Source of the DNA: Gemmatimonadota bacterium
GTDB taxonomy: Bacteria > GCA-2686955
Direction of reading: 5' to 3'
Length of the DNA: 16,704 nucleotides
NCBI GenBank assembly: GCA_002686955.1
Contig: NYZA01000110.1
Span: 1 to 16,704, forward strand
The position numbers were made by a program, and so were the translations under genes. Under the pieces are notes generated by a model. The model did no database searches, was not told the DNA's origin, and worked only from the letters and a program-made list of their open reading frames with translations. Each line of letters opens with the position of its first letter. The first letter of the stretch is position 1. Positions 940 through 16,704 of the stretch are shown here, in pieces.

Positions 940-961
940 TCTGTCTCTCCCTTCGGTTCTC

Positions 962-2089
962 TCAGCGGTAGGAATGCGCGGGATGGGAACCGATTGTGAT
1001 CGAGTACTGAAGACGTACTTCGTGGCTTGCCTCGGTCGATTCTTCATGCCCCTCCGCCGGCCGGTGGCCGTAGAACAGGCGAATCGACTGGAACTCGCTC
1101 GGCACGAAAGCGATCTGCATCGCGCCGGCACTCCGCAACTCGCCGTCGTCCGAGGAGGGAAGCCCGATCAGGTCGAGACGGCACTGGAGCCAGAATCGGC
1201 GTGAGAGCTTCCAGGAGAGGGCGCTGTAGGCGCTCAGGTCGACCCGGGGATCGGCTGCGGGTGTGTCTTGTCGAGAGAGGCGGATCAGCTCACTCTGCCA
1301 AATCAGCTTCTTGCGATTGACGCTCCGAGTGGGAGCCCATTGCAGGGTCAGATCTACCCCTGTGAGATGGGTCCATCCGAGGTGCTCGTTCCGACCGGAG
1401 AGGTTCGAGCCGGAGAGCTCGAGGGTGCCGTTCTCGCCGAGATCCCAGAGATTTCGCAGCCGCCCAAGGTAGGCGAGATCTTCATCGTCGGGGGAATGGA
1501 AGAGGGTGCCCTCGCTGCCGTTGGTCACTTGTGCCGTCAGCTCCGCGAAATGGGGCAGGGGCGCAAGCCAACTCAACTCCAGGCCAGCGTCGCCGTGCAC
1601 ATCGGCGCCAACGCTGCGCTCGATGATCCACGGAGCGTCGGCGAAGAGGAAGTTGTGGACGTGCTGCGGTGCATGTTTGCCGAAGGCCGGCTTCAGCACG
1701 CCAACCCGTGCTCGCATATCACCGGGTAGGGCATCGAAGGTGGCGTGGCCCTCCTCGAGCGCGAGACCCTCGCCAGGAGAATACGCGAGCACAATGTCGG
1801 CGCGGGCGTACGGGTCGATCGCGCTGGTCATGCGGATCTCGGCCTCTTGCAGGCTGAGCCCGCGAGTCGGTCCGGCATGGTCGTGGGCGTCGTGCTCGTG
1901 CGCATCGTCGCCCTCCTCTTCTTGCCCGACTTCGTCGGGGGCGATGTTCGACGCGCGGCCGAGGAAGAGCGCGTTGACGCTGATGGCGGGATTGAGGGCG
2001 CGCGAGATTCCGGTGGCGGTGGCGCTGGGGGCGCCGCTTGCCTGGCCTGTCGCGCAGAGCAATGCCAGTAGGTGCGGATGGCAGATCAT
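962..2089 (-). CDS. outer-membrane beta-barrel protein with His-rich segment, linked to metal uptake
   Basis: Predicted 375-residue exported protein. I chose the ATG at 2089 because GGAG lies five bases upstream; a GTG at 2110 would add seven residues and leaves the signal peptide less terminal. The signal peptide is about residues 1-20, ending near QASG/A. Then come NPAISVNALFLG (about 32-43), an acidic linker, and a His-rich patch DAHEHDAHDH (62-71; His64, 66, 69, 71). Next is a region with alternating polar and hydrophobic strands, including a second His cluster FGKHAPQHVHNF (136-147). The C-terminus YSITIGSHPAHSYR looks like a barrel closing strand. I recognise the pattern from uncharacterised porin-like proteins found beside ZnuA-type genes, but no name is established. 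The likely role is passage or capture of metal ions at the outer membrane, inferred from the His clusters and the neighbouring metal-binding protein. It is 22 bases upstream of that gene. Confidence 0.75.
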   Translation of the reverse strand: MICHPHLLALLCATGQASGAPSATATGISRALNPAISVNALFLGRASNIAPDEVGQEEEGDDAHEHDAHDHAGPTRGLSLQEAEIRMTSAIDPYARADIVLAYSPGEGLALEEGHATFDALPGDMRARVGVLKPAFGKHAPQHVHNFLFADAPWIIERSVGADVHGDAGLELSWLAPLPHFAELTAQVTNGSEGTLFHSPDDEDLAYLGRLRNLWDLGENGTLELSGSNLSGRNEHLGWTHLTGVDLTLQWAPTRSVNRKKLIWQSELIRLSRQDTPAADPRVDLSAYSALSWKLSRRFWLQCRLDLIGLPSSDDGELRSAGAMQIAFVPSEFQSIRLFYGHRPAEGHEESTEASHEVRLQYSITIGSHPAHSYR

Positions 2090-2255
2090 CTCTTCTCCAG
2101 TCGTTCCCACATGCCCCGGGCGGAGCGAAGCGGGGACGGCGATCGGTTCCTGAGCGGCGAGAGCTCGACGTTCGCGCGCTCTATCGGCGCGCGGTCGGAG
2201 CTCCGCTCATCATGGGGACGGGGAGTACCCGATCACCCGAATACGGAGATTGCTT
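2090..2255. other. 166-base spacer between the His/Cys-rich protein and the barrel gene
   Basis: This is the longest non-coding stretch in the window. It carries the strong hairpin at 2151-2209 and a weaker inverted repeat CCCCG/CGGGG (2114-2118 with 2131-2135). I see no convincing -35/-10 pair, no AT-rich palindrome of the Zur type and no T-run after either hairpin in the transcribed direction. It marks the most likely place for separate control of the metal uptake genes from the cytochrome operon upstream, but a promoter is not demonstrated. Confidence 0.6.
2151..2209 (-). other. long imperfect hairpin (21 bp stem, 9-base loop)
   Basis: The sequence shows four nested arm pairs: TGAGCGG with CCGCTCA (2151-2157 / 2203-2209), AGCT with AGCT (2162-2165 / 2199-2202), CGAC with GTCG (2166-2169 / 2194-2197) and CGCGCG with CGCGCG (2173-2178 / 2188-2193). 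Small bulges lie between the arms. It lies about 60 to 120 bases ahead of the barrel gene start. No T-tract follows in the minus direction, so it is not a standard intrinsic terminator. It may be an mRNA processing or stabilising stem, an attenuator-like leader structure, or a dispersed REP-like element. Confidence 0.65.
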
Positions 2256-2710: not shown

Positions 2711-3871
2711 TCAGCGGACTTTTGAGGTGGGTATCCGGCTCCATCGCCCCTTTCGGTGCGTACAGAGAACCGGCGCCATCGAGGCTCCGCCCAAGCCATC
2801 GAATCGGTATGTGCCGGCGAGTCCGCTGTGGACACCCTCCGCCAGCGCGGAGCGGATGGCCGTGCGGCTCGGTCCGGCGGAATCGATCGCCTCGATGATC
2901 ATGCGGGTGGCGTCGTACGTGAAGATCCCGACAGGATCGGGAGGAGACCCTGTACGGGAGCGAAAGGCGCGCTCGAGCTCCGTCGGCCACCGGCGTCCCA
3001 GATCGTACGGTGCCGCCACGATCAGCTCGCCCAAACTCTCACGAGCCGAGATCAGCTCCGGCCCCAGTGTGTTCGCCGCGAGGAGCACGGGACCGTCGAA
3101 GCTGTCCGCGCGGGCGGAGCGAATCAGCTCGAGGGCGCCCGTCGGTTCTCCCCAGATCAGTAGAGCATCGGCATCTCGAACCGCTGCACTCTTCGTCTCG
3201 TACATTTCATGCGCCTCGTACTCCTCGATGCCCCAGAGCCCGAATCCGGCCCGATCGGCCGCCTGCTCGAGTCTGCGCCTCCCGGTTCGCCCCTCCCGGT
3301 TTCCCTCGATCAGCACGAGCAGGCGCCGCAACCCTCGCTCGCCGCCGTAATCGATCAGCGAGCGGGCCTGCAGATCGTCTCGGGGAAAGATGCGGAAGAC
3401 CCAGGGCACGTTCGCGTAGTCGATCGTCATATCGGAGGCTGTCGGAGTGATCAATGGAACCCACAGTTTCGCCGTTGCGAGCTCTGCGACATGTGCGTCA
3501 CCCCCATTCAGGCCACCGACGATGGCGCTGACGCTGTCTTCCAGGGCGAGTGCCGCCAGTTGTTTCGCCCCTGTTCCCCATAGACCGTCGTCCGATCGAA
3601 ACACCATTTCGTATGGGCGTCCCTTGCAGCCTCCTCGCCGGTTGGCCTCCTCGATTGCGATCTCCACGGCCGCCTGGAGCCGGTCCCCCGCCGCACTCCG
3701 TGCGGGGCCGAGCACACCGATCCGAATCGTCTCGTGTCCATCTGGAGCGACGTCGCTATCGCTCGGTCCCAGAAACCTAGTGTCGCTCAGCGATAAATCG
3801 CGATAGGGCTGCCCACTCGCCGGCACGTTAATGGCCATCAACACGGACAAGAAGAGCGGCCCGGAGATCAA
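2711..3871 (-). CDS. LivJ/LivK-type periplasmic substrate-binding protein, paralogue B
   Basis: Branched-chain-amino-acid-type binding protein fold (Peripla_BP_6). I place the start at TTG 3871 (386 residues). It overlaps the upstream stop as TTGA, has a GAGAG site, and yields MISGPLFLSVLMAINVPASG as signal peptide. A GTG at 3907 in the same frame (398 residues) is the alternative. Core features are IRIGVLGPARS (49-59), IAIEEANRRGG (71-81), DDGLWGT (94-100), EDSVSAIVGGLNG, VPWVFRIFPRDD and the C-terminal GIFTYDATRMIIEAID. It matches the neighbouring upstream gene segment by segment (GLWG, EDSV, PW-FR), so the two arose by duplication. The ligand pocket residues differ, so the ligands may differ. 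No permease or ATPase gene of the Liv type lies nearby, which suggests a sensor or delivery role rather than ordinary import. The ligand is unknown. Confidence 0.85.
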   Translation of the reverse strand: MISGPLFLSVLMAINVPASGQPYRDLSLSDTRFLGPSDSDVAPDGHETIRIGVLGPARSAAGDRLQAAVEIAIEEANRRGGCKGRPYEMVFRSDDGLWGTGAKQLAALALEDSVSAIVGGLNGGDAHVAELATAKLWVPLITPTASDMTIDYANVPWVFRIFPRDDLQARSLIDYGGERGLRRLLVLIEGNREGRTGRRRLEQAADRAGFGLWGIEEYEAHEMYETKSAAVRDADALLIWGEPTGALELIRSARADSFDGPVLLAANTLGPELISARESLGELIVAAPYDLGRRWPTELERAFRSRTGSPPDPVGIFTYDATRMIIEAIDSAGPSRTAIRSALAEGVHSGLAGTYRFDGLGGASMAPVLCTHRKGRWSRIPTSKVR

Positions 3872-5142
3872 AACGCTCTCAACACCTTCGGCTCGTTGTA
3901 CACCCACCGGCCGCCCCGCATGGTCGCCATCGTTACCCTGCCGCGATCGGAATGGACTCGGTCCATCTCGATCTTGCCGGTCACGCCCTCGAACTGATCG
4001 ATCTCAGCAAGTGCGTCTCGAATTCTGTATCGATTGAGTCCGGCTTTGTCGATCGCCGCGAGCACCATCATCGTGCCGTCGTACGAGTGGGCGGCATGGA
4101 CCGATGGCTCATCGCTGTGGAGCTTGCGATACGAATCTCTGAACCCCTCGTGGAGCCGGGATGGCGACGAAGGGTCGTACGGCACCACGGCCACGACCCC
4201 CTCGGCGGCGTCGCCCGCGATCTCGACGAAAGAGCCGTGGAGGACGCGATCGCATGCGAAGACCGGCATCGTCAATCCCGCGCCTCGAATGCGGCGCACG
4301 AGATGCCCCGCCGCCTCGGCGTCGGCCCACAGGACCACGGCGTCGGGGTCGACTCGCCGCAGACGCTCGATCTGGAGGGCGAACTCAGGATTCAGATTGC
4401 GATGAGCCACCTCGTAGTTGATCTCGATGGGCGGCGGATGGCCGAGTCGAACCGAGCCGCCGCGGAACTCCCCCACACCGAATCGCCCATAGCGATTGTC
4501 GGCTCTCAGGATGGCGACGCGCTCGAAACTCCGTTCCTTGTAGAGATGGAACGCGATCGTGTAGGCCATCTGGCGATCGTCGGCGATGTTCCGGAAGATC
4601 CACGGGATCTTCGTCTCGACCAAAGTCGGATCGGTATCGGCGACATTCATGACCGGGAGCTCGGTCTTCAGCGCTACGCGAATCGCGATATGTGTGTTGG
4701 CCCCGTCGACCGTGCCGATCACCGCCCACACACTGTCTTCGTACGAGAAGGCGACGATCTCGTTCGCGGAGGCTCCCCAGAGGCCGGTATCGTTGCGCAC
4801 GACTAGCTCGAAAGGTGTTCCCCGAAACCCGCCGCTTTTGTTCCTCTCGTCGATCGCCAGCTCCACGCCGGCCAGCATGTCGCGTCCGATATAGGTCTCG
4901 TGTGAACCCTCCAGCGGCGCGAGTACCCCGATGCGCACCGTCTCCACTTTCGGCTCCGGCTTCTCCCGCCCCGGTCCGGTGAATTCGAGTGGCTCGACGA
5001 AGAACTGCTTGTAAGGCGCCGTCAAGAAGCGCCCGAAGGGTCGCAGCTCTTCGGGCGTGTTGCCGTAGACCGCCAACGAATCGTCGCTCATCGCGGAGGG
5101 TGAAAGGGCGCAGAGTGCGACCACCATCGTTCGGCTGATCAT
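3868..5142 (-). CDS. LivJ/LivK-type periplasmic substrate-binding protein, paralogue A
   Basis: 424 residues from the ATG at 5142, which overlaps the preceding stop as ATGA with AGGGA upstream. The frame is open much further 5', but that part is the shadow of the propeller gene. The signal peptide is about 1-18 (MISRTMVVALCALSPSAM). A 45-residue linker follows, then the Peripla_BP_6 fold: VRIGVLAPLEGSHETYIGRD (69-88), GVELAIDERNKSGGF (92-106), DTGLWGAS (118-125), EDSVWAVIGTVDG (135-147), a second lobe from about 200 (FERVAILRADNRYGRFG, 206-222), DAVVLWADA (267-275) and AHSYDGTMMVLAAIDKAG (351-368). Domain order and length fit LivJ-like receptors. The linker before the fold is longer than usual. 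It is paired with a paralogue immediately downstream and a propeller gene immediately upstream. The ligand is not predictable from what I can see. Confidence 0.88.
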   Translation of the reverse strand: MISRTMVVALCALSPSAMSDDSLAVYGNTPEELRPFGRFLTAPYKQFFVEPLEFTGPGREKPEPKVETVRIGVLAPLEGSHETYIGRDMLAGVELAIDERNKSGGFRGTPFELVVRNDTGLWGASANEIVAFSYEDSVWAVIGTVDGANTHIAIRVALKTELPVMNVADTDPTLVETKIPWIFRNIADDRQMAYTIAFHLYKERSFERVAILRADNRYGRFGVGEFRGGSVRLGHPPPIEINYEVAHRNLNPEFALQIERLRRVDPDAVVLWADAEAAGHLVRRIRGAGLTMPVFACDRVLHGSFVEIAGDAAEGVVAVVPYDPSSPSRLHEGFRDSYRKLHSDEPSVHAAHSYDGTMMVLAAIDKAGLNRYRIRDALAEIDQFEGVTGKIEMDRVHSDRGRVTMATMRGGRWVYNEPKVLRAF

Positions 5143-6218
5143 GGCGAGATTCCCTTCCGGCTCTTCGCGCCTCCCAATCTGCCGCGGCTCACACCTTTCG
5201 CCGTCGCCACCCACACGTCTTCTCCATGAAAATCGACACCCAGAACGAAGTTGTTGGCCAATCCCGCCTCGAGGGCGACCGTATTGAGTAGTTCCCCCTC
5301 GCTGTAGTTTCGGGCGACCCAGGGTCCCATGTAGTTGGATGGATCGTCCCTCGGAGCGTATGTCACCCACCGATTCGAGCCGTAGTCGACGACGCTGAGC
5401 CCCTTGTCGGTGCAGAGCCAAGCCTGGCGCCCCTTCGCCTTCACGGAGTTGATGAAGTTGCTGGCAAGCCCCGTGTCGTGATCCATATAGCCGCGCCAGC
5501 GATAGCCGTCGTAGCTGGAGAGCCCGAAGTAGGTGGCTGCCCAGAGTATGCCCGCTCGATAGCTCACGGCGGTCGTGATCATGTGGATCAAGCCGTCGTC
5601 CCGGAAGAGGTCGATCTCCATCTCGCGATCGGGATCGATATGGTCCTTCCATTTCTCCGTGGCCGGATCGAACTCGAGCACCCCTCCACCCCAGAGCGCC
5701 GCCCAGACCTTCCCATCCGCATAGTCGACCGCGTAGCCCCAGGGTTCGTGCTGAGGACTATTTTCCGGTGTGTACACTTGCCACCGGCCCTCTCGGACCA
5801 TATAGCGACCCTGGCCGACAGTGGTGGCGACCCAGACGTTTTGGTTTTCGATCGCCACGCCGAAAACGACGTCGTTCGGGAGTCCGCTGTCGAACTGAGT
5901 GAAAGTCGTGAAACGCCCCGCCGAAAGCCGCGACAGTCCCCCCATGGTGCCGGCCCAGAGCTCTCGTGTCGCTGGGTCCACCGCGACGGAGAGAACGGCA
6001 TTGTGCGCTAGCCCCTCCGCTTCGCGGTAAGTCCGCCACACTCCTTCCTCACGGCAAGCCAGGCCCCGATCGGTGCCCACCCAAACTCGATCTCGATCGA
6101 CCGCGACACAGAACGCCTTCTCGGAAGGCAGGCCATCCGTCGTGTGGAAAGACTCCCATAGGTGATAGACCGGCGGTGTCGCGGCCAGGGCGGCCGCTAC
6201 GATCCAGACCGAAATCAT
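5139..6218 (-). CDS. secreted seven-blade beta-propeller (reg_prop type), no kinase domain
   Basis: 359 residues from the ATG at 6218, with GGAG/GAGG just upstream. It starts two bases after the stop of the cytochrome gene. The signal peptide is about 1-14 (MISVWIVAAALAAT). The rest consists of blades with the two-component-regulator-propeller signature W-x-x-T-x-x-G-[LV]: WVGTDRGL (46), WAGTMGGL (88), WVATTVGQG (129), WAALWGGG (172), WAATYFGL (226), WLCTDKGL (267) and WVATAKGV (336). Seven copies make a closed propeller. In well-known proteins this repeat is the periplasmic sensor part of hybrid histidine kinases. Here there is no Y_Y_Y domain, membrane helix or kinase after the last blade, so it is a free periplasmic or secreted propeller, probably a protein- or ligand-binding platform for its neighbours. 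Its C-terminus overlaps the first substrate-binding protein by four bases. Confidence 0.88.
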   Translation of the reverse strand: MISVWIVAAALAATPPVYHLWESFHTTDGLPSEKAFCVAVDRDRVWVGTDRGLACREEGVWRTYREAEGLAHNAVLSVAVDPATRELWAGTMGGLSRLSAGRFTTFTQFDSGLPNDVVFGVAIENQNVWVATTVGQGRYMVREGRWQVYTPENSPQHEPWGYAVDYADGKVWAALWGGGVLEFDPATEKWKDHIDPDREMEIDLFRDDGLIHMITTAVSYRAGILWAATYFGLSSYDGYRWRGYMDHDTGLASNFINSVKAKGRQAWLCTDKGLSVVDYGSNRWVTYAPRDDPSNYMGPWVARNYSEGELLNTVALEAGLANNFVLGVDFHGEDVWVATAKGVSRGRLGGAKSRKGISP

Positions 6219-6220
6219 GC

Positions 6221-6877
6221 TCACTCCTCTCCTTCTTCGTTTTCGCGCTCCGAGTGCTCGATCATTGGCCATGCCGTTTCTACATCGAATGGGAGTGCGG
6301 GTTCGTGCGAAGGCTTTTGCTTGTGGCAGGAGATGCACTGCTCGCGCTTTGGCATCGCTATTCCGTAGTGCGCCCACAACCCGGCCACCATAGCGACCAG
6401 CGCGCGCGGCGGACTCGCCAACCCGGCGCGCGAAACGAGCGCCAGAGCGGCCGCCGACGCATGCGTGCCGCCGGGACCGTGACAAGCTTCACACACGACG
6501 CCCTCAGCCATGCGAAAGTCGGCATCTCTGTAGCCGGCCGGCACATCGTGCCCTGTCGCATGGCACGACAGACATTTGCCGCTCTTGGCCGGCTCGTCGC
6601 CGGTGATACCCACCTCTTCGCCCATGGAGATCGCCGCGGCGGAGCGGAGCGATACAAATGCCCGAGCGTGCTTGGTGCCCAACCATGTCTCGTACGTCCC
6701 CGGATGGCATTGAGCACACGCGTCATTGCCCAAGTAACGAGCCGCCGGTGTCGCGAGCTTCTCGATATCGCCGATGTCGAGCTCGTCCGGCTCGAGGCGA
6801 TCTTCGTACAGCTGCCCGATCGCCGCCGAAGAGACCGCCACGGCCAGTAACGCGATCACCGGCAGCGCCTTGACCAT
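6221..6877 (-). CDS. tetrahaem c-type cytochrome, c554-like
   Basis: 218 residues from the ATG at 6877, which shares one base with the upstream stop (TGATG). The signal peptide is about 1-21 (MVKALPVIALLAVAVSSAAI). There are four CxxCH haem c sites: CAQCH (54-58), CLSCH (102-106), CEACH (129-133) and CISCH (181-185). The stretch YLGNDACAQCHPGTYETW (48-65) followed by KHARAF (69-74), and later CEACHGPGGTHASA (129-142), is the pattern of the cytochrome c554 / multihaem cytochrome family; in that family His residues such as His70 and His139 can serve as distal ligands. The C-terminus is acidic (ERENEEGEE). The protein would be a periplasmic electron carrier, most simply passing electrons to or from the diheme enzyme encoded just upstream. 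No catalytic role is visible in the sequence. Confidence 0.92.
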   Translation of the reverse strand: MVKALPVIALLAVAVSSAAIGQLYEDRLEPDELDIGDIEKLATPAARYLGNDACAQCHPGTYETWLGTKHARAFVSLRSAAAISMGEEVGITGDEPAKSGKCLSCHATGHDVPAGYRDADFRMAEGVVCEACHGPGGTHASAAALALVSRAGLASPPRALVAMVAGLWAHYGIAMPKREQCISCHKQKPSHEPALPFDVETAWPMIEHSERENEEGEE

Positions 6878-8808
6878 CAGAAGCTCTTGATGTACTCGAT
6901 CAGCGCGTTCAACTGATCCTTGGTCATGTCGTTCGTGACTCCATGCGTGTCGTCCGGGTTGAAGCGGGTCCAGAGCTCCTCCAGGCTGTAGCAGCGGCCG
7001 TCGTGCAGATAGGGTGCCTTCTGGTGGACGTTGCTCAAATGTGGAGTGTCGAAGACGCCGTCTCTGTCGTGTGTGGCCTTCGATCCGATATCGTGGCGCT
7101 TTCGATCGGTACCGTAGGGAGGCTTGTGACAACCGATGCATCGATTCGCGGTGGGAATGTAGCGACCGAAATTGTCGTACTCCCGCTCGAACATCTCTTT
7201 TCCGAGTAGCTGGAATTCGGTCAAAGCCGCGCCCGTCTCTCGGTAGCGATTCGGCCGCAACGGAATCGATTCGATGAAGCGAACAATCGCCGTATTCTCA
7301 TCTCGGACGAAGCCATGGGTCCGAAAGAAGAGCTGGGCCGCGCGGGGCCCCTCCTGTCGCTCCAGCGTCGGGTTCTTGCCGGTCCACTTGAAGGGAGCGG
7401 TCTCGGAGATGCCGCGCAACGAGCGATTGTCGACGAGGTTCCGCCCCATGCCGCCGTCGACCGCGATATCGTACGAGAGGCCGTCCAGGTGCTCCTCGGG
7501 ATGACAGGTATTGCAGCTGAGTTGTTTCTGGAAGCTTATGCTCGCGTGATTGAAGAGCACGGCCCCGTGACGCAGGACCGTCGTAGTATCCGGGCCTCCC
7601 AGATCGATCGAGCCGATCGCTTCCAGGCTGTTTGTATCGATGATGGTGATATCGTCGGAGAGGCGATTGGCGACATAGACGAAACGACCATCGGGTGAAA
7701 CCCTCAGCCCCTTCGGGTTGCGGCCGGTCGGGACGCGCGCCAGAACGTACGAATCGCTCGCGCCGAGGTGGCGCGCCAGACGGCTGATCTCCTGATCGTC
7801 GAGTCCAATCTCTCCGCCCCGAACCTCCAATCGTTCGTAGGCGCTCGCCACATCGATGACCGTGACGACATCGGCGCCGCTCGACGAGATGAAGAGGAGG
7901 CGACCATCGGGAGTGAAGTCGACGCCGTACGGATCGGCGAAATAGAGATTCGGCTCGTCGATCAGAAGAAAGGCACTGCGGCCGCCCGGGCGGGTTTCGG
8001 TCAGCGCGATTCCGAAGGTCACCATCCAGCCCTGCGCGAGCTGAGTCTCCGGGATCAAGTTCTTCGGAATCTCCAGAGCGGTGACGACGAAGCGGCCATC
8101 TGGCGAGACAGCCAGACCTTGCCCGATCACCGTCGATCGGAGTCGCCTGCGCTCCCAGATTAGTCCAGCGTCCGCATCGACGACCGTCAGCTCCAGAATC
8201 GGCGGCGTTCGGAAGGGGACCGGCTCGGAGTATTGGCTTGAGACATAGAGTGTTCGGCGTTCTTCCGTCGCGGCGATGTCGAAGGGACCCGCGCCCGCCG
8301 GTAGCCGCCTGGTCTCACGGAACTCGGCCATGTCGACCACCGAAATATCGTTCGTGCTCAGGTTGGCTACGAAGAAACGCTCTCCGGTGGAGTCGAACGA
8401 GATGCCATGGGGATCGTCACCAACCCGCACGCCGCGGCGCGACTCCAGTGACGCCGGATCGAGCTCCGAGACGGTGTTCTCCCAACGACTCCCGACCAGC
8501 AGGCTCTTCTCGTCGGGGCTGAGAGCGAGCCCGAAGGGCAGGCGTTCGACCCCTCCGTGGCCCACGACCGCCGTCGTCGCCGTATCGATGAGCAACACTT
8601 CACCGGTTCCCTCGCAGGCGACGTAGAGCCGCCCTCCATCGGGGGAGAGCAGCAGCTGCACCGGCGACTTGTAGAGCTCATCCGCCGGCCCTCTGTAGCG
8701 CTCGTAGCGGTCGCTCACCGGTCTTTCGTCGAAGCGCTCGCCGACCGCTCCGCGGGCCGTCGTTGCGATCCAGAGGGCGGCGAGCGCCAGACCGAGCATT
8801 GGGCTCAT
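6877..8808 (-). CDS. YVTN beta-propeller fused to diheme MauG/cytochrome c peroxidase-like domain
   Basis: 643 residues from the ATG at 8808, which overlaps the upstream stop as ATGA and has GGAGAG five bases ahead. The signal peptide is about 1-20. Residues 50-410 are a YVTN/NHL-like propeller, with repeats such as LYVACEGTGEVLLIDT (61-76), FFVANLSTNDISVVD (145-159), VDFTPDGRLLFISSSGADVV (296-315) and FVYVANRLSDDITIID (376-391). Residues 415-643 form a diheme c module: CNTCH (432-436), DNRSLRGISETAPFKW (460-475), CIGCH (557-561) and the family ending TPHLSNVHQKAPYLHDG (588-604) before SLEELW. This ending is typical of MauG and bacterial cytochrome c peroxidase. Such enzymes use peroxide or high-valent iron to reduce peroxide or oxidise protein residues. 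Which reaction applies here cannot be told, and I could not place the distal Tyr/Met ligand. The fused propeller suggests substrate-protein docking. Confidence 0.9.
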   Translation of the reverse strand: MSPMLGLALAALWIATTARGAVGERFDERPVSDRYERYRGPADELYKSPVQLLLSPDGGRLYVACEGTGEVLLIDTATTAVVGHGGVERLPFGLALSPDEKSLLVGSRWENTVSELDPASLESRRGVRVGDDPHGISFDSTGERFFVANLSTNDISVVDMAEFRETRRLPAGAGPFDIAATEERRTLYVSSQYSEPVPFRTPPILELTVVDADAGLIWERRRLRSTVIGQGLAVSPDGRFVVTALEIPKNLIPETQLAQGWMVTFGIALTETRPGGRSAFLLIDEPNLYFADPYGVDFTPDGRLLFISSSGADVVTVIDVASAYERLEVRGGEIGLDDQEISRLARHLGASDSYVLARVPTGRNPKGLRVSPDGRFVYVANRLSDDITIIDTNSLEAIGSIDLGGPDTTTVLRHGAVLFNHASISFQKQLSCNTCHPEEHLDGLSYDIAVDGGMGRNLVDNRSLRGISETAPFKWTGKNPTLERQEGPRAAQLFFRTHGFVRDENTAIVRFIESIPLRPNRYRETGAALTEFQLLGKEMFEREYDNFGRYIPTANRCIGCHKPPYGTDRKRHDIGSKATHDRDGVFDTPHLSNVHQKAPYLHDGRCYSLEELWTRFNPDDTHGVTNDMTKDQLNALIEYIKSF

Positions 8809-10334
8809 CGCTCCTCTCCGGGTAGGACCGATGCGCCGTAGCGATCGGCCGGAGGCATCGCGGGCTGCGCTCGAATCAAGGCCTGCGTCGCCCGATTCTC
8901 CGGCGCGAGCTCCTTGTCCTCGTGGCAGCCGATGCATCCGCGCTGGTCGCCGGATCGCACCCAGGACCATGCGCGCATCGTCTTCACCGCCTTCCCCCGC
9001 GCGTCGAGCAGCTCCAGGTAGAAAGGCCGATCTCCGGCGACGTTGAGGTAGAAAGAGCCGTCCTCTTCGACCGGCGCCTCGCCGAGGGGTCGCGTCTCCA
9101 CCGCCGGGGGCGGCCAGGTCGTGTCGGGATCGGCCCCGCCGCTCGCCGCGACCACCCCTTCCTCCAGGTCACGGGGCACGCCTTCCACGAGCCGCACCCG
9201 CGCGACGCTACCCTGCGCCGGTGCGCGTGCTCGATCCGATTCGTACACATTGAGACACTGCAACTGCCCCACCGATCGGAGTGAGCCGACATCGAGCACC
9301 GAGGCGAACTCCACCGTCGGGATCCGTGCGGGGGGCGGCTCTCGCGGGGCTAGAAGCATCGCATCGACATCGTTCCATTCCGGATCGTCGAAGAGCTCCC
9401 GCACGACCTCGCGCGACTCCGGATCGAAGAGGCCGATCCCGTACGATCCGCCCTCCTCCGGCCGCACTGAAACCAGCATCCTCTCGTCATCGAAGGGGTG
9501 CGGAGTGCGGTAGAGACCTCTCGCTACGAGCTCCCGGCTGTGCAGAGGACGGCGCAACGAGAGCATAGCCAGATCGCCCCCTCCGTCCGCCCTCGGTCCG
9601 ATCGACTCGATGAATGCCACGAGCCGACCCGGCAGCTCCGCGGCCGAGTGTTGCGACACGAAAGCGTCATGGCTGCCGTAGAAGGGGTTCAGATTCTCGC
9701 CCGCCCAACTGATGGTCATCAGGCCGAGAGCACCGCGCTGCCGCGCCGAGTACAGAACCCGGCCGTCCGAGAGCAAACTCGGCGACCCGTCTCCCCCCAA
9801 ATTGTAGGTGGTGCGCCAGAGCACATCGCCCCGCTCCGGCACGGGATCGAGATTGGCGGCGTAGAGCGAACGCAAGCGCTCATCTCCGAGATCGTTCATC
9901 ACCGCGGGCGCGGTGCTCACGAATTCGATCCATCGCACCCTCGCCTCGAAGTTCGGCGAGTCGACCGCCGCTCGCGGAAGGTAGATCGGTTCTCGGCAGT
10001 CGCCCAGCTCATCGGTGCAACGCCTGAGATCCATCCCGCTCGCGCTCATCTCCCACACATTCCACGGATCGTCGCCCCTCTCTTTCCCGGCAAAGAGGAT
10101 CGATTGCCCATCGAAAGCAACAGTTGGGTCGGCCGCCGAGGCGAAACCCTCGGTGAGGATCGTCACGGTGCCGCCGGGATCGAGGCGGGCGATACGGCTG
10201 CCCTCGGCCGCGACGCCGGGATAGAGTCGCTCTGCCGACCGCGGCTCCTGGACGAACACGATCGAATGCTCGATCGGCCCCGCCGAGGCAAGGACCGTCC
10301 CGGCCGCCATCGCGAGGCCCAGCGCTACGCTCAC
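8805..10334 (-). CDS. hydrazine-synthase-alpha-like protein with TolB-type propeller and one haem c
   Basis: 509 residues from the GTG at 10334. I prefer this start because it overlaps the upstream stop as GTGA, has AAGGAG eight bases ahead (10343-10348) and gives a clean signal peptide (MSVALGLAMAAGTVLASAG). The longer in-frame Met at 10409 would add 25 charged residues inside the next gene. Residues 25-330 resemble a TolB/PD40 propeller (DPTVAFDGQSILFAGKERG at 69-87, DGSPSLLSDGRVLYSARQRG at 182-201). Residues 420-509 hold DGSFYLNVAGDRPFYLELLD (425-444), RAWSWVRSGDQRGCIGCHED (454-473) and PEN (478-480). A propeller, a beta domain and a terminal GCIGCHE-x-PEN match HzsA-like proteins. True hydrazine synthase needs beta and gamma subunits, which are absent, so hydrazine chemistry should not be assumed. 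It more likely acts as an electron-transfer or scaffold partner. Confidence 0.82.
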   Translation of the reverse strand: MSVALGLAMAAGTVLASAGPIEHSIVFVQEPRSAERLYPGVAAEGSRIARLDPGGTVTILTEGFASAADPTVAFDGQSILFAGKERGDDPWNVWEMSASGMDLRRCTDELGDCREPIYLPRAAVDSPNFEARVRWIEFVSTAPAVMNDLGDERLRSLYAANLDPVPERGDVLWRTTYNLGGDGSPSLLSDGRVLYSARQRGALGLMTISWAGENLNPFYGSHDAFVSQHSAAELPGRLVAFIESIGPRADGGGDLAMLSLRRPLHSRELVARGLYRTPHPFDDERMLVSVRPEEGGSYGIGLFDPESREVVRELFDDPEWNDVDAMLLAPREPPPARIPTVEFASVLDVGSLRSVGQLQCLNVYESDRARAPAQGSVARVRLVEGVPRDLEEGVVAASGGADPDTTWPPPAVETRPLGEAPVEEDGSFYLNVAGDRPFYLELLDARGKAVKTMRAWSWVRSGDQRGCIGCHEDKELAPENRATQALIRAQPAMPPADRYGASVLPGEER

Positions 10335-11950
10335 CGCGCCGGCTCCTTCAGAACCAAAACTCGGTCTGCGTCGACCCCCTTGATGCTTTGTCGCGCCCCG
10401 CAAGGCCACCCAACCACGATCTCATCGATTCTCGAATACGTCCCGAGCCCGAAATGGAGCCGAGGATCGTTCTCGGAGAGGTAACTGCCGCCTGAGATTC
10501 GCTGTTCGGTGCGCTTCAGCTCCCCCGCGCAGACCGTCACGATCGCGCCGATTCCATCTCTATTGCAGTCGCTGCCCTCGAGCCGGATCGCAAGCCAGTG
10601 ATGCGCGTTCCCCCCATCGTTTCGAACCAGATGCGATGGACGATCCAGATTGACGACGAGAAGATCGAGATCGCCATCGTTGTCGTGGTCGGCCACGCTC
10701 AGCCCTCGCGACACCATTTTTCGCCTGAACCACGGCCCGTACTGCTCTCTCAGATCGCGGAACACGCGCCCGCTCGCGCCCCGCGCCAGATTGAGCAAGA
10801 GCAGAGGCTCCATCGTGTCGAGGCGATGGTTGTCCCCCGTGCTCAGCAAGATATCGAGGAAGCCGTCGTTGTCGAAATCGCCGAAATCCCCACCCCAACT
10901 GATGTACTGGCCACTTGCCTGCGCCAATCCGCACGCGGCGGTCGCGTCTTTGAAAAGCGCCCCTCCGACATTGACGTAGAGGTTGTTGAACGCCATATCG
11001 GGGACCAGCAAATCGAAATCTCCATCGTTGTCGAAATCGCCGAAATCTCCCCCCATCGACGATGTGGCGTCCCCGTTCGCCGAAAGCGCGACACCCGACT
11101 GGAAAGCGACGTCGGAGAAGGTGCCGTCGCCGTTGTTTCGATAGAGGTAGTTCTGCATCGCATCGTTCGCGACGAAAATATCGATCCACCCGTCCGCGTC
11201 ATAGTCGGCCGCGATCGTTCCCATGGCGCGCCCGCTCTTCGCCACACCTGCGCGCTCGCCGACCTCCTCGAAGGTGCCGTCGCCTTTGTTGTGATAGAGA
11301 AGATCGCGTTGTCCCAAATAGGAGAGCGGCCCTGGAAACTCATCCGCCGCGTAGTGCAGGCGATAGCCCGGATCGAAATCGAGATAGTTGCCGACGAAGA
11401 GATCGAGAAAACCGTCGCGATCGTAGTCGAGAAATGCGCAACCCGTCCCGCCCAAGGTGTCTCCGACACCCGCGGCGACCGTCATGTCGGCAAAAGTCCC
11501 GTCCCCGTTGTTCCGGTAAAGGGTGTTGCGGCCGTAGTTCGAAACATAGAGATCGGAGTCGCCGTCGTTGTCGATATCACCCGCGACGCAACCCATCCCG
11601 TATCCGTCATCGCCCACGCCGGCCACGGCGGTTACATCCGCGAATTTGCCATTGCCGAGGTTGCGATAGAGCCGGTTCGTGGCGCCGATGTCGCCGCTCT
11701 CCGCCGGCCCTTCGTTGAAGGGTGGCGTATAGCTGCAGTTCACCAGATAGAGATCGATCCAGCCATCGGAATCGTAGTCGAAGGAAGCGCAGCCGGAGCC
11801 GCTCGATTCGACGATGTTGGTGAGCGCTACGTCGCCCAGCCTGTGCTGGAAATCGATGCCCGCGCTGCGCGAGATCTCCACGAAGGTGGGCGGAGGAGGA
11901 GCGTCGGCCCTCGCCGTGAGCATGAGCAACGGAAGAAAAGCAATGAACAT
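10331..11950 (-). CDS. CRTAC1-type FG-GAP/VCBS repeat protein with ASPIC/UnbV domain
   Basis: 539 residues from the ATG at 11950. No strong ribosome site is visible, but this is the only Met before the mature chain and gives a signal peptide MFIAFLPLLMLTARA. The 5' extension of the frame is a shadow of the glycosyltransferase gene. Seven calcium-loop motifs Dx[DN]xDG are visible: DYDSDG (58), DIDNDG (125), DYDRDG (175), DYDADG (249), DFDNDG (305), DFDNDG (358) and DHDNDG (421). Most are followed by a hydrophobic DLxV-type strand and NLYRN, as in FG-GAP/VCBS propellers. Residues 450-539 are an ASPIC/UnbV domain (HHWLAIRLEGSDCNRDGIGA at 450-469, ISGGSYLSENDPRLHFGLG at 485-503). Such proteins are exported and bind calcium; their function is mostly unknown. 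It is the first gene of the coupled run and lies 40 bases after the glycosyltransferase stop. Its Cys residues (54, 72, 121, 171, 340, 462, 474, 517) may form disulfides. Confidence 0.9.
   Translation of the reverse strand: MFIAFLPLLMLTARADAPPPPTFVEISRSAGIDFQHRLGDVALTNIVESSGSGCASFDYDSDGWIDLYLVNCSYTPPFNEGPAESGDIGATNRLYRNLGNGKFADVTAVAGVGDDGYGMGCVAGDIDNDGDSDLYVSNYGRNTLYRNNGDGTFADMTVAAGVGDTLGGTGCAFLDYDRDGFLDLFVGNYLDFDPGYRLHYAADEFPGPLSYLGQRDLLYHNKGDGTFEEVGERAGVAKSGRAMGTIAADYDADGWIDIFVANDAMQNYLYRNNGDGTFSDVAFQSGVALSANGDATSSMGGDFGDFDNDGDFDLLVPDMAFNNLYVNVGGALFKDATAACGLAQASGQYISWGGDFGDFDNDGFLDILLSTGDNHRLDTMEPLLLLNLARGASGRVFRDLREQYGPWFRRKMVSRGLSVADHDNDGDLDLLVVNLDRPSHLVRNDGGNAHHWLAIRLEGSDCNRDGIGAIVTVCAGELKRTEQRISGGSYLSENDPRLHFGLGTYSRIDEIVVGWPCGARQSIKGVDADRVLVLKEPAR
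10335..10348 (-). promoter_or_regulatory. ribosome binding site deciding the GTG start of the HzsA-like gene
   Basis: AAGGAG at 10343-10348, read on the minus strand, stands eight bases before the GTG at 10334. It lies inside the end of the CRTAC1-type gene. This supports the GTG over the upstream Met at 10409 and shows that the two genes are coupled through a GTGA overlap. Confidence 0.7.
10867..11047 (-). repeat. internal direct repeat encoding the GDFGDFDNDG blades
   Basis: A 22-base unit (cgttgtcgaaatcgccgaaa followed by tc on the plus strand) occurs identically at 10867-10888 and 11026-11047, 159 bases apart (53 codons, so in frame). Both copies encode part of the same blade motif in the CRTAC1-type gene. 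Identity at the DNA level suggests recent duplication or conversion between blades, since the other five calcium motifs have drifted further. Confidence 0.75.
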
Positions 11951-11990: not shown

Positions 11991-13094
11991 CTATCGTTCG
12001 AGCATCTCCAACACTCTCGCCGCGACCGCCTCCGCGCCATCGATCGGCGGCGGCGATTCGGGCCACGGGCGAGCCGCCAGCCTTCGCAAGGGCTCCAGCA
12101 GCTCCCCCTTCCGCAAATCGTCCGGGTCGACGTACTCGGCGGGGAAGTAATCCTGCATCTCCTCCACCAGGATAGGGTACTCACGAAACGTCCCACGCCG
12201 CGTGTAGAGCATCGCGCAGCGGTTGACCGCGCACTCCGAGACGATGCCGTAGCCGGGCTTGGTGACGACCACATCGACCGCCCCGACCAGGTCCTCGTAG
12301 AGGAGCCCCCTCGCCTGCAGCTCCCATTCCTCCAGGTGGGTTCCCCCCACCACCTTGGTCGCGCCCACGGTGACGTAGTGATGGTCACGATCGCGCGCCA
12401 GCCGCCTGAGATCGGCCTCACCGAGCCCCATCCCCCCGAACGAGAGCAGCACCGCCCGGACCTTCTCCGGTATGCCGGCCCTGCGCCGCGCCTCGTCCCG
12501 GTCGAGGGCGGCCCGCCTGCCGACCAGCGGAACATCCTCTTGTCGCGGAAAGGCGCGCATTTCATCGTGGAAGGGCAGGCGCAGAAGCAGATCGGTCGCC
12601 GCATAGTCCTCGCGGATCGAGTCGATCACGTGCGCGGCCTCCGGAGCCTCGCCCGCCCATTCGCCGTAGATCCACTCCCAGTCGAAATTTCCCATCGCCA
12701 CCGAGGGCACGCCGGCCCGTCCCCCCACGGCCGACGCCAGAGGCGGAATATCGCCGAATATCAGATCGACTCGGTCTCTGCGAATCGACTCCGCCTCAGC
12801 ATCGATGATCGCCTCCCTGCCCTTCGAGAACTCCGCGTAGCGCCGCAACGTCGCCCCCCCGTCGAGGGTCAGACCATCGCTCTGCACGACCCCCACATCG
12901 TTCACCCGGCGCGCGATCTCCAGCGGGATCGGCATCGCCGCCAGGAAGAGGCGGACCGGTGCCGCGCTGCGGATCTGGACCCGCAGATCGGGCGCCCGTC
13001 GCCCCAAAGCCCTCAGCACCGCGCTTACGCGGGTGGCGTGTCCGAAGCCGTGGGCGCTGACGTAGAAGCGGATCGTCTTGCGGGAGCGTTCCAT
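11991..13094 (-). CDS. glycosyltransferase (GT-B), similar to the N-terminal half of L-arabinokinase
   Basis: 367 residues from the ATG at 13094 with GGAGAG just ahead. The N-terminus IRFYVSAHGFGHATRV (8-23) is the conserved opening of a GT28/MurG-like group that also forms the N-terminal region of plant L-arabinokinase. A nucleotide-sugar half follows with LLSFGGMGLGE (about 214-224) and VVVTKPGYGIVSECAVNRC (about 274-292), the usual donor-binding Pro-Gly-Tyr-Gly and Ser-Glu of GT-B enzymes. It has no signal peptide and should be cytoplasmic or membrane-associated. No kinase domain is attached and the length fits a stand-alone transferase. The sugar and acceptor are unknown. Its first 70 bases overlap the end of the RND exporter gene, so the two are likely co-translated. 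A lipid or cell-surface glycan role would fit the exporter, but that is inference. Confidence 0.82.
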   Translation of the reverse strand: MERSRKTIRFYVSAHGFGHATRVSAVLRALGRRAPDLRVQIRSAAPVRLFLAAMPIPLEIARRVNDVGVVQSDGLTLDGGATLRRYAEFSKGREAIIDAEAESIRRDRVDLIFGDIPPLASAVGGRAGVPSVAMGNFDWEWIYGEWAGEAPEAAHVIDSIREDYAATDLLLRLPFHDEMRAFPRQEDVPLVGRRAALDRDEARRRAGIPEKVRAVLLSFGGMGLGEADLRRLARDRDHHYVTVGATKVVGGTHLEEWELQARGLLYEDLVGAVDVVVTKPGYGIVSECAVNRCAMLYTRRGTFREYPILVEEMQDYFPAEYVDPDDLRKGELLEPLRRLAARPWPESPPPIDGAEAVAARVLEMLER

Positions 13095-15847
13095 CTCTCT
13101 CCGATCGCTAGGAGCGTGGGAAGGGCGGTGACCGACGCCAAGAAACAGGCGGTGACGCCGATGACCATCACCCTTCCGAGCGATTCGAGGCCGTTGTGGT
13201 CCGCCAATTCGAAAACGCCGAAGCCGATCACGGTCGTCGCCGAGGTCAGCAGAACCGCGCGACCGGTGTGGCGGAGCACATGGCGGATCCGTCCTCTGCC
13301 CTCCTCAAGATAACGGTGCATCATATGTACGCCATCGTCGATCCCGATGCCGAGCAGGAGCGGAACCGCCACGACGTTCGCGAAGCTGAAATCGATCCCC
13401 AGTGCCCGCATGATCCCCAATGTCCACGAAATGCCGAGCAGCAGAGGCACCATGGTGATCGCGGCGCGGCCCACCCGCCTCAGGTCGGCCAGCAGCGCCA
13501 CGAAGATCAGCCCGAACGCCAGCTTTGCCGCTCTCGCCCCTTCGCGACGCGAGAGCCCGAGAAGATCGGCGTAGAGCACCGGAACCCCCACCAACTTGGG
13601 AAAGTGCACCCGTAGCCGATCCACCAGCGCCGAATTCACCTTGTCGTCATAGATATTGTGGCGGCCGTAGATCGAGACGAGCAGATGACCACTCTCTCCG
13701 ACCAGCCGCGTTCGCAGCTCGTCGGGCAGGTCGTCCACCCCGAAAGGCCTCCCCTGCGCGGGACCGGAGATCTCGGCCCGACGCTGCGCCAGGACCTCAC
13801 GCAGCGCTCCATCGATCTCCGGCGAGGGCGCGACGCGGTCCGCGGCCCCACGCGCCCGCCGGGCCAGCTCCGGCGATTCCCTGGGCAAGCTCTCCAGCCC
13901 GGAGAGATAGGCCAGATCGCCGAGCTCGGTCACGGTCGCCGCGAGCCGGTTCAGCGCCACGGACATCGTTCCAGCGGGAGGGGAGAAAGAGAGGGGACGG
14001 TTGCAGAGCTCGTAAAGTGTGTCGCGTACCGTTCGTCCCGCGCCTATGCGGCTGGGCAACCCGTCGGGGATTAGCCTGGCCGGCGACACCACGCGAGAGA
14101 TGACACGCTCCTCCTCCAACCCCTCGAAAACTGGTTCCCACCGCCTTGCTTCGTCCAAGTCGGCGGCCGAGAGGTAGAAGGGCTCGCCGCCCATATCGAA
14201 TCGCTCGACGACCTCTCGCTGCAAGCGATGCGAAGGCGTGTTCGGCTGGGCCAGCAACAGATCGCCCTGGAATTCGATGCCACGCCGCAGCCAACCGTCC
14301 TCCGGGCCGAGCGGAATGCCCGCGGCGATCCCCAGCGAAGCCGCCGTCGCGATCAGTGTCGCTACCGCGAACCACCCCGTGCGCCTCTCGATCGCGTCGG
14401 CCAGTCCCCCCAAGATATCGAGGGCCATCTCGCGTGTCTCGAAGCGTGGGAGGCGGCGGGCGGCCAGGCGGTCCTTGATCAGGAGAAGTGCGGGCATCAC
14501 GGTGACGAAGGCCACGAACGCCAGCCCGATACCGGCGAAAGCGACCCAGCCCAGCTCGTAGAAGGCGGGGTAGCGCGAGAATATGAGGGCGCCGAAGGCC
14601 ATGATCGTCGAGATCGCGCCGGTCGTGACGGCGCTGCCGGTGGCGGCGATCGCCCCGCGAAGCCCCTCTTCCGCTCCCTTGCCGCCCGAGCGCTCCTCGC
14701 CGTAGCGCACGATCAGATGAATGCCGAAATCGATGCCGAGGCCGAGCACGACCGCCACGAACATCACGCTGAAGACGTTGAGGCGCCCGAAGGTGAGGGT
14801 GACGCCCGCCAGCGTCCAGGTGAGCGACATCAGCAGCGGGAACATCGCGAGCAGCGGCGCGATCCAGAGACGGAGCGCAGAGCAGAGCAGGACCGTGATC
14901 AGGATCGCCGCCATGCGCCCCGTGCGTTTGAAGTCTTCTCGGATGATCTCCTCTTCGAGCTCCTGCTGGGGGATCGGGCCGGTGACGCGAACCCTTGGCC
15001 CCGGCACCGCCGCTTCGGCCCGGGCGATCGCCGCGCGCGCCCCCGACATCGTGTCGTAGATGAACTCGCGCCCCTCTTCGCCGAGGGTCGAACGGGCCGC
15101 CTTCGCCGATACCAGCAGGGCTTTTCCGTCGGTAGAGACGATCCGTTCGTCGCGCAAAACGTCCGGCTCGCGGCCGCCGATCAGGATCCGGTCGAGGCGG
15201 CGGCCGACCTCCGCGCGAAATATGTCGTCATCTTGGCCGGCGCCGCCATCCGCGAGCAGCGCACCGAGCTCCACCAGCTCGGTGAGCAGCTCCGTCGCTC
15301 TTTCGTCGCTCTCCCTCGTGAGCTCCCCCTCGCCATCGACGTAGCGAGCGTCGATCAGATCGCAGCCGGCTCCGATCAGCTCGGCGGCCGCGCGGGCGTG
15401 TAGGAAGCGACGCAATTCCTCTCGGTGGGGCACGATGTCGCCCTCGATCGACGCCAGCTCTTCCGGCTCGAGATAGAGAAGGGCCCGCTTGCGGAACCAC
15501 TCGACCGGCAGGCGGCTCGACGCCGACTCGAAGAGTTCGCTCCGGCGACGCAGATCGGCGGCCAGAGTGTCTGCCAGAGCGGCGCGCGCGGGGGCATTGG
15601 ACCCGTCGATCACGAAGAGCAGATGCGACACACCCCCGTGCTCGCGCAGAATCTCCCGCATCTCGGCGACGACCGGATTGTCGCCCGGGAGCAGATTGTT
15701 GTAGTCGGCGTCGAGGGCGAGGCCGCGCAGGCTGACGATCGTGCAGGCGATCGTGAGGAGTGTCGCCAGCGAGACCAGAGGCCATGGGCGGGCGATGACG
15801 GTCGTCGCGATCCAGCGGAGGGCGCGGGCGCGGGCGCGGAGACGCAT
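13025..15847 (-). CDS. RND/MMPL family exporter (HpnN-like)
   Basis: 940 residues, inner-membrane exporter of the RND superfamily in its MMPL/HpnN branch (lipid or hopanoid export in studied members). The architecture is duplicated. Helix 1 is at about 23-41 (PLVSLATLLTIACTIVSLRG), followed by a large periplasmic loop starting LALDADYNNLLPGDNPVVAE. Next comes a sterol-sensing-type helix block from about 315 to 470 containing GLGIDFGIHLIVRYGEE (near 370). Helix 7 is near 495, followed by a second periplasmic loop and a second helix block from about 775 with GIGIDDGVHMMHRYLEE (near 835). The paired G-[IL]-D-[FD]-G-[IV]-H motifs in both halves hold the proton-relay Asp typical of the family. The start is the ATG at 15847, with no clear ribosome site. 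The last 23 residues overlap the glycosyltransferase gene and look unconstrained. No hopanoid genes are in view, so the cargo is open. Confidence 0.9.
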   Translation of the reverse strand: MRLRARARALRWIATTVIARPWPLVSLATLLTIACTIVSLRGLALDADYNNLLPGDNPVVAEMREILREHGGVSHLLFVIDGSNAPARAALADTLAADLRRRSELFESASSRLPVEWFRKRALLYLEPEELASIEGDIVPHREELRRFLHARAAAELIGAGCDLIDARYVDGEGELTRESDERATELLTELVELGALLADGGAGQDDDIFRAEVGRRLDRILIGGREPDVLRDERIVSTDGKALLVSAKAARSTLGEEGREFIYDTMSGARAAIARAEAAVPGPRVRVTGPIPQQELEEEIIREDFKRTGRMAAILITVLLCSALRLWIAPLLAMFPLLMSLTWTLAGVTLTFGRLNVFSVMFVAVVLGLGIDFGIHLIVRYGEERSGGKGAEEGLRGAIAATGSAVTTGAISTIMAFGALIFSRYPAFYELGWVAFAGIGLAFVAFVTVMPALLLIKDRLAARRLPRFETREMALDILGGLADAIERRTGWFAVATLIATAASLGIAAGIPLGPEDGWLRRGIEFQGDLLLAQPNTPSHRLQREVVERFDMGGEPFYLSAADLDEARRWEPVFEGLEEERVISRVVSPARLIPDGLPSRIGAGRTVRDTLYELCNRPLSFSPPAGTMSVALNRLAATVTELGDLAYLSGLESLPRESPELARRARGAADRVAPSPEIDGALREVLAQRRAEISGPAQGRPFGVDDLPDELRTRLVGESGHLLVSIYGRHNIYDDKVNSALVDRLRVHFPKLVGVPVLYADLLGLSRREGARAAKLAFGLIFVALLADLRRVGRAAITMVPLLLGISWTLGIMRALGIDFSFANVVAVPLLLGIGIDDGVHMMHRYLEEGRGRIRHVLRHTGRAVLLTSATTVIGFGVFELADHNGLESLGRVMVIGVTACFLASVTALPTLLAIGERWNAPARRSASTSAPTASDTPPA

Positions 15848-15866
15848 CGGGTGGCCGACTTTTGCT

Positions 15867-16187
15867 CTACTCTTCCCGGCTCCGGACCGCCGTACCGTAG
15901 ACCACGACCTCCGCCGCGCTTCGCATCACTTCGGTCGTCGCGAAGCGGGCGCAGACGACGGCGTCGGCCCCGAGGACGCGCGCGTCTTCGATCATGCGAT
16001 CGATCGCCTGCTCGCGCGCCTCGGCGATCATCTTGGTGTACTCCTCGATCTCGCCGCCCACGATCCCCTTGAGCCCGGCCATGAAGTCGCGACCGAGGTG
16101 GCGGGCCCGAATGGTGCTCCCCTTGACGAGGCCGAGCGCCTCTTCGATCCGGCGCCCCGGAAGCTCGTTGGTGGTGACGACGATCAT
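15867..16187 (-). CDS. YbjQ / UPF0145 family protein
   Basis: 106 residues from the ATG at 16187, overlapping the anti-sigma stop as ATGA; GGGAG lies about nine bases upstream. The usual family length is about 105. Family marks are MIVVTTNELPGRRIEEALGL (1-20), VKGSTIRARHLGRD (21-34), a Gly-rich helix start GLKGIVGGEIEEYTKMIAEA (38-57), AREQAIDRMIEDARVLGADA (57-76) and the final strands VVCARFATTEVM and AEVVVYGTAV. These small cytoplasmic proteins form ring-like oligomers and are described as putative heavy-metal binding, though no Cys/His cluster is visible here and the function is unproven. The 19-base gap to the exporter start suggests one transcript with it. Confidence 0.92.
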   Translation of the reverse strand: MIVVTTNELPGRRIEEALGLVKGSTIRARHLGRDFMAGLKGIVGGEIEEYTKMIAEAREQAIDRMIEDARVLGADAVVCARFATTEVMRSAAEVVVYGTAVRSREE

Positions 16188-16630: not shown

Positions 16631-16704
16631 GAGACCGCCTCCGAGTAGTAGGGGGCCAGCTCCTCGCGGAGCGCCTTGCGTGCGTTGTGGAGTCGAGACA
16701 TCAC
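16627..16704 (-). CDS. ECF sigma factor, C-terminal tail only (5' part outside window)
   Basis: Only the last 25 codons and the TGA stop are inside the window. The residues VMSRLHNARKALREEL followed by APYYSEAVS match the end of sigma region 4.2 of sigma-70 family ECF factors, where G-T-V-x-S-R-L-x-R-A-R-x-x-L is the DNA-recognition helix. The stop overlaps the anti-sigma ATG as ATGA, the usual sigma/anti-sigma arrangement. The rest, and any autoregulated promoter, lies beyond 16704. Confidence 0.8.
   Translation of the reverse strand: MMSRLHNARKALREELAPYYSEAVS

Follow-up and report, generated by a model that had tools for sequence, protein, structure and literature searches.

Hydrazine synthase (HZS) is the key enzyme of anaerobic ammonium oxidation (anammox) and makes the signature intermediate of that process. 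A study from December 2025 sorted HZS homologues into clades I–IV and rejected an anammox function for them (Hagglund et al. 2025; PMC12758564). In its clade III, which was given no function, a CRTAC1 gene lies upstream of the gene for the alpha subunit, alpha lies upstream of beta-gamma, and genes for two ABC binding proteins follow downstream. Here, we describe a seven-gene operon of a Gemmatimonadota bacterium whose gene layout and residues place it in the clade III group, as a member or near member. The operon lies in a stretch of 16,704 nucleotides (hereafter the window) that is the whole of contig NYZA01000110.1 (assembly GCA_002686955.1; G000:C110) of a metagenome-assembled genome (MAG; 4.28 Mb, 84.5% complete). 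We propose that the operon encodes an extracytoplasmic, HZS-like redox machine whose product is most likely not hydrazine, an explanation that, taken whole, we give an even chance of being right. The clade III group is already on record; what is new is the recognition of the constant parts of the set and a testable metabolic link. The seven open reading frames all lie on the minus strand and run from 11950 to 2711:

g1, 10331..11950, minus strand: CRTAC1-type FG-GAP/ASPIC integrin-like propeller, 539 residues, without a haem motif (PF13517 1e-47, PF07593 2e-18; PDB 9etn, cartilage acidic protein 1, 5e-17)
g2, 8805..10334, minus strand: HZS alpha homologue, 509 residues, with one CXXCH at the haem alphaI position and without the haem alphaII domain (PF18582 1e-21; NF052339 5.6e-45; PDB 5c2v_A 1e-39)
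g3, 6877..8808, minus strand: HZS beta-gamma fusion homologue, 643 residues, a seven-bladed propeller followed by a dihaem domain like those of cytochrome c peroxidase (CCP) and MauG (NF052340 3e-46, NF052342 7e-45; PDB 5c2v_B 1e-39, 5c2v_C 5e-13)
g4, 6221..6877, minus strand: tetrahaem cytochrome c554-type protein, 218 residues (PF13435 9e-19; 1bvb 1e-9)
g5, 5139..6218, minus strand: secreted Reg_prop beta-propeller, 359 residues (PF07494 4e-10)
g6, 3868..5142, minus strand: LivJ/HAAT-type substrate-binding protein, 424 residues (PF13458 6e-40; PDB HAAT-type chains including 4gnr 1e-23 and 4ey3 1e-14)
g7, 2711..3871, minus strand: second, divergent substrate-binding protein, 386 residues, with a TTG start for the −4 overlap (PF13458 1.5e-30; 4mlc 3e-14)

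The window and clade III share the order CRTAC1, alpha, beta-gamma, with two substrate-binding protein genes downstream. They also share a short alpha with one haem, which is missing haem alphaII and roughly 100 C-terminal residues, and a Trp at the position of gamma His144. They differ in that clade III is given one extra CXXCH in beta-gamma, whereas g3 carries two only. A separate tetrahaem gene, a Reg_prop gene, a chorismatase-like Rid gene, and a 3-deoxy-D-arabino-heptulosonate 7-phosphate (DAHP) synthase go unmentioned in the main text of PMC12758564. Among the carriers of related loci that it names are the culturable Opitutus terrae and Thermogutta terrifontis. An initial annotation of the operon, made from its sequence, knew of no named pathway with this set, a statement that the 2025 study has overtaken.

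Homologues of all three HZS subunits are almost certainly encoded in the operon, and beta and gamma form one chain, as they do in Scalindua, judging from profile matches and structure models. At E 0.01, g2 has a single solved relative, the Kuenenia HZS alpha subunit (5c2v_A, 1e-39), and the AlphaFold2 (AF2) model of g2 superimposes on 5c2v_D over 473 of 509 residues (Z 38.8, root mean square deviation 3.5); the next structural matches are TolB propellers (Z 27), which cover the propeller part only. The best solved relative of the g3 propeller is HzsB (5c2v_B, 1e-39), its dihaem half matches HzsC (5c2v_C, 5e-13), and its best NCBIfam models are HZS beta and the HZS beta-gamma fusion, both below cut-off (NF052340 3e-46, NF052342 7e-45). 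The AF2 propeller of g3 matches HzsB (5c2v_B) with a Z of 47.2 over 341 aligned residues, compared with 37.3 for the next chain. NCBIfam L-NosZ and PQQ_ABC_repeats were rejected as identities of g3; their matches are weaker than those to HZS and confined to the shared propeller. The initial annotation had called g2 HzsA-like, which its HZS_alpha match sustains, and g3 a YVTN-diheme fusion, which describes its propeller and dihaem CCP_MauG domain correctly but stops short of the HZS beta-gamma identity given by NCBIfam, PDB profile matches, and fold. What it overlooked is that the two genes together are the alpha and beta-gamma of an HZS-like enzyme.

Relative to anammox HzsABC (PDB 5C2V), the window shows whole-chain homology of alpha and beta-gamma, adjacent genes, and a multihaem electron partner, but the gene order is opposite, there are additional propellers and binding proteins, and key residues are missing, among them the catalytic alpha Tyr591, gamma His144, and gamma Cys165. 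Alpha Tyr591 is a ligand of haem alphaI in HZS (PMC12758564). No equivalent was found in g2, in which no Tyr follows the motif CIGCHEDKELAPENRA and the stretch after the haem motif reads EDKELAPENRA. A second haem motif, for haem alphaII, is also absent from g2, whose single CXXCH lies at 467 of 509 residues. The position of gamma His144 is a Trp in all 22 gamma domains compared, as in CCP/MauG (in g3, the conserved Trp is within APFKW), and alignment places a Glu in g3, and a Cys in the version of beta-gamma fused to cytochrome c554, at the position of gamma Cys165, the third haem bond of HZS. NCBIfam HZS scores of 153.5, 158.2, and 153.4 bits are under one third of the cut-offs of 800, 560, and 1250. 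These residues and sub-cut-off scores rule against an identity as anammox hydrazine synthase, and on them the locus is not evidence of anammox. The hzsA and hzsBC genes of Phycisphaerae UBA1845, in which alpha is also directly upstream of a fused beta-gamma outside Brocadiales, were proposed as possible anammox genes (PMC10732223), whereas in the window the key residues argue against that function. The residue differences are a warning that HZS-like matches in metagenomes are not to be read as anammox.

The seven genes are tightly coupled. Recomputed junctions are −4 between g1 and g2 (GTGA), −4 between g2 and g3 (ATGA), −1 between g3 and g4 (TGATG), +2 between g4 and g5, −4 between g5 and g6 (ATGA), and −4 between g6 and g7 if the start of g7 is the TTG at 3871, which bears out the coupling initially described. 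Pfam confirms the domain names initially given to all seven products, in order FG-GAP with UnbV_ASPIC, HZS_alpha, a YncE-like propeller with CCP_MauG, Cytochrome_C554, Reg_prop, and two Peripla_BP_6. The claim of a signal peptide on every product holds insofar as each N-terminus has a hydrophobic 11-mer (mean Kyte–Doolittle values of 1.90–2.94, where 95% of internal windows are below 1.68), but most of the seven lack basic residues before the hydrophobic stretch. Export of the set is argued partly from the CXXCH motifs (one in g2, two in g3, and four in g4) because haems bound at such motifs need periplasmic maturation.

Members of the set stay together across phyla. A search with g3 alone against 30 relatives, of which one is a same-family genome (G001) and the others share no rank closer than domain, returned generic YVTN/CCP-type matches only, and an alpha alignment was therefore chosen for a wider scan. 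The same-family genome had no match to g3 and none to PF18582 at E 0.001. With the three-sequence alpha alignment as query, 18 loci were found among 84,980 species genomes, and the seven proteins were mapped onto these loci and onto loci of further genomes (taxa are named as in the MAG records). The module is present in MAGs labelled Latescibacterota, KSB1, Gemmatimonadaceae, Pirellulaceae, and Acidobacteriota, in which at least four of the seven genes remain neighbours, as the check put forward with the initial annotation had asked, as well as in several further lineages. In the phylum of G144, it is found in each of six genomes from one family, and a short contig of a Cyclobacteriaceae MAG encodes alpha and beta-gamma. 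In KSB1, the module is apparently split over two contigs: the first ends within the Reg_prop gene, and the second opens with a cut Rid gene followed by a binding protein, a tetrahaem cytochrome, and a binding protein.

Two gene orders recur. That of the window is CRTAC1, alpha, beta-gamma, tetrahaem, Reg_prop, and two substrate-binding proteins, with the tetrahaem gene separate. The other is alpha, CRTAC1, beta-gamma, Reg_prop, and two substrate-binding proteins, and here the beta-gamma protein of several lineages carries one or two N-terminal cytochrome c554 domains as a fusion (L038, L152–L156, L159, L165, and L166). Because the c554 domain is fused to beta-gamma elsewhere, g4 is tied directly to g3, and we consider it likely that the two are direct partners. 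Wherever the contig of a full-module locus extends far enough, Reg_prop is present. The Reg_prop propeller and the binding proteins are constant parts of the module, without a permease among the neighbours scanned. These constant parts, the recurrence of the set in five named phyla and two gene orders, and the tie between g4 and g3 are new beyond PMC12758564.

Pairwise evolutionary distances of five module members correlate (r 0.70–0.94). Conservation of the gene set across phyla rules out chance neighbours, and the seven genes very probably form a single functional module. It had been suggested that the operon serves a single function and that its products make up a periplasmic system for binding small molecules and transferring electrons; cross-phylum neighbourhood and correlated distances support both well.

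Other genes adjoin or interrupt the module at single loci. In Latescibacterota MAGs, molybdopterin oxidoreductase and NarJ-like genes (L160:3317-6549) or an NrfD gene (L161:3104-4345) are directly upstream, and a flavodoxin-like gene sits between alpha and CRTAC1, with a pyridine-nucleotide disulphide oxidoreductase (L059:1097-2993) or without one (L056:3749-4231). A Planctomycetia MAG has three tandem alpha-like genes of ∼1000 codons with two haem motifs each (L062:6342-15991), and a convergent gene for a 1424-residue alpha-like protein adjoins the Pirellulaceae module (L159:14965-19239).

A Rid-fold gene adjoins the module at many loci. It precedes alpha in one family, stands between the binding-protein genes in Latescibacterota, and is part of the operon in an Acidobacteriota MAG. 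The first PDB match of the Rid profile is 5AG3 (5e-21; entry title, putative pteridine-dependent dioxygenase), which we take to be a Hyg5-type chorismatase. Three Hyg5 residues with known roles, Gly240, Cys327, and the catalytic Glu334 (PMC7170507), are kept in 21 of 21 such Rid proteins, 16 of them from module genomes and the window's genome included, as they are in the Hyg5/FkbO chorismatases (PDB 5AG3, 4BPS). The Cys327 equivalent is found in 0 of 16 ordinary RidA proteins, and the critical Rid arginine is kept in the module-associated proteins. Across 50 genomes, a chorismatase-like Rid occurs in 19 of 21 with the module (the window's genome and a KSB1 copy cut by a contig end included; 14 of 16 when six same-family genomes are counted once) versus 1 of 26 without it (Fisher p about 6e-10, a value that ignores phylogeny). 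The gene is also in three genomes with divergent alpha/beta-gamma homologues. In a Gynuella MAG (L066:5024-13988), four reading frames stand in a row, for a Rid protein that bears the chorismatase signature, a 283-residue product, a 1268-residue alpha-like protein, and a 1005-residue beta-gamma-like protein, so that the Rid link extends to divergent HZS homologues. In a genome lacking the module (G269, L186:4872-7724), a chorismatase-like Rid gene adjoins that of a PD40 propeller protein with one CXXCH.

DAHP synthase catalyzes the entry step towards chorismate. Its gene adjoins the module in KSB1, Latescibacterota, and Acidobacteriota, and in G208 its neighbour is the Rid gene. Four of 19 loci have it, which would be rare at an assumed chance of 0.006 per locus (our own estimate).

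The binding proteins belong to the LivJ/HAAT family (Peripla_BP_6), and the cognate LivHM permease is missing from their surroundings, with no permease gene among the scanned neighbours of module loci or in the window. BPD_transp_2 (PF02653, the LivH/LivM family) has no match in the window's 84.5% complete genome, whereas 12 of 14 control genomes were positive, and two further module genomes have no match to a LivH-type permease. Alignment shows that a pocket-loop His is common to all module binding proteins, g6 and g7 included. The Ser position that we take to be the carboxylate-binding site of LivJ is mostly Gly in these proteins. We rejected amino-acid transport by g6 and g7, as there is no permease nearby or in the window's genome, although the majority of the other module genomes encode one elsewhere. 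These features suggest that g6 and g7 may be substrate presenters and not transport parts.

We suggest the following mechanism. By analogy with HZS, g2 and g3 would probably form a physical core in which the dihaem gamma site feeds another haem site, located in alpha, by a route past the beta propeller. Tetrahaem g4 would carry electrons to or from the gamma haems, an electron role analogous to that proposed for HZS's own multihaem partner, and the CRTAC1 and Reg_prop propellers (g1 and g5) may serve as scaffolds. The two LivJ-like proteins would capture and present a substrate instead of feeding a transporter. Because the gamma domain has the CCP/MauG Trp, peroxidase- or MauG-like one-electron chemistry appears likelier than reduction of nitric oxide (NO). 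Given the recurrence of the set in at least five phyla in the company of a chorismatase-like gene, the complex most likely acts on a small molecule other than that of hydrazine synthase. The likeliest candidate substrate is a small chorismate-derived aromatic acid (e.g. a hydroxybenzoate) made in the cytosol by the chorismatase-like Rid protein, with a dedicated DAHP synthase raising its supply in certain lineages; this is a lead only, and we consider it rather doubtful. Somewhat less probable still is the complete pathway, in which, in at least five phyla, DAHP synthase and Rid would divert chorismate to a small aromatic acid that passes via paired binding proteins to an extracytoplasmic, peroxidase-like HZS relative wired by a tetrahaem cytochrome.

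If the complete pathway exists, its machine would be of the kind from which the anammox enzyme derived. A widespread sister system with the same subunits and constant extra parts is a testable object for the question of HZS origin, and the chorismate link, if real, would provide the first concrete substrate class for these HZS homologues.

Several observations weigh against this proposal. Some LivJ-like transport is possible in other lineages, as 18 of 21 module genomes carry a LivH-type permease elsewhere, and the closest solved relatives of the binding proteins are mostly amino-acid binders. The gamma domain of g3 is poorly modelled (low predicted local distance difference test scores) and gave no fold comparison, which leaves sequence as the sole basis for its haem geometry. 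The Rid copy of the window's genome (G000:C37:7065-7490) is unlinked to the operon, short (199 residues), and devoid of the N-terminal domain of chorismatases. The long forms linked to the module reach 37–58 bits, far below the TIGR04444 cut-off of 325; chorismatase activity is accordingly putative, and the Rid proteins may instead be imine deaminases. At most module loci, DAHP synthase is not among the adjacent genes.

Imine deaminases would fit a different function, in which LivJ-like proteins deliver amines or amino acids, the haem complex oxidizes them to imines, and a Rid deaminase clears these. Solved amino-acid binders as nearest relatives, the retained Rid arginine, and the general tendency of Rid genes to cluster with amine oxidases (PMC4433059) are in keeping with this, but the Gly and added His in the binding proteins, a chorismatase Cys327 that ordinary RidA lacks, and DAHP synthase neighbours that point to the shikimate pathway are not. 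A cytosolic Rid would, moreover, not meet imines made in the periplasm. We therefore regard amine oxidation as unlikely, if the least so of the alternatives. A little less probable is a respiratory complex for electron transfer or extracellular electron exchange, in which the binding proteins would be sensors and no particular aromatic substrate would be involved. The seven haems spread over three proteins would suit it, as would the NrfD, molybdopterin-enzyme, and NarJ-like genes upstream at two Latescibacterota loci, but such genes were not found among scanned neighbours at other loci, and the association with Rid and DAHP synthase would be left unexplained.

Two further functions are, in our estimation, improbable to the same degree. 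The operon may encode a divergent hydrazine synthase, or an NO- or hydroxylamine-processing relative, in a non-anammox bacterium, since it has homologues of all HZS subunits with a multihaem partner and similar Phycisphaerae loci have been proposed as novel anammox (PMC10732223). Against this stand the absent Tyr591 and haem alphaII, the changes of gamma His144 to Trp and Cys165 to Glu, the low NCBIfam scores, and the rejection of anammox function for such homologues in PMC12758564; the genome also has no match to Multi-haem_cyto (HAO-type), which proves little given that the control set was silent too. Alternatively, the module may modify or mature proteins, its MauG-like domain oxidizing a residue in a partner held on a propeller scaffold. 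The CCP_MauG domain with its conserved Trp and the several propeller proteins are compatible with this role, but the module includes no gene for an obvious small target protein, and the two binding proteins, the HZS alpha haem domain, and the chorismatase-like gene would have no explanation.

A scan for promoters and terminators gave no excess versus shuffles, and an Rfam search gave no match. Upstream of the operon, the minus strand (11991-16702) encodes a 367-residue protein without a Pfam match, an MMPL/RND exporter, a YbjQ heavy-metal-binding protein, and a zf-HC2 protein. Downstream (1-2110, minus strand), a gene for a ZnuA-type zinc-binding protein (PF01297 7e-51) overlaps a reading frame of 382 residues without a Pfam match that includes the His-rich stretch DDAHEHDAHDHAGP; the two look like a zinc-acquisition pair.

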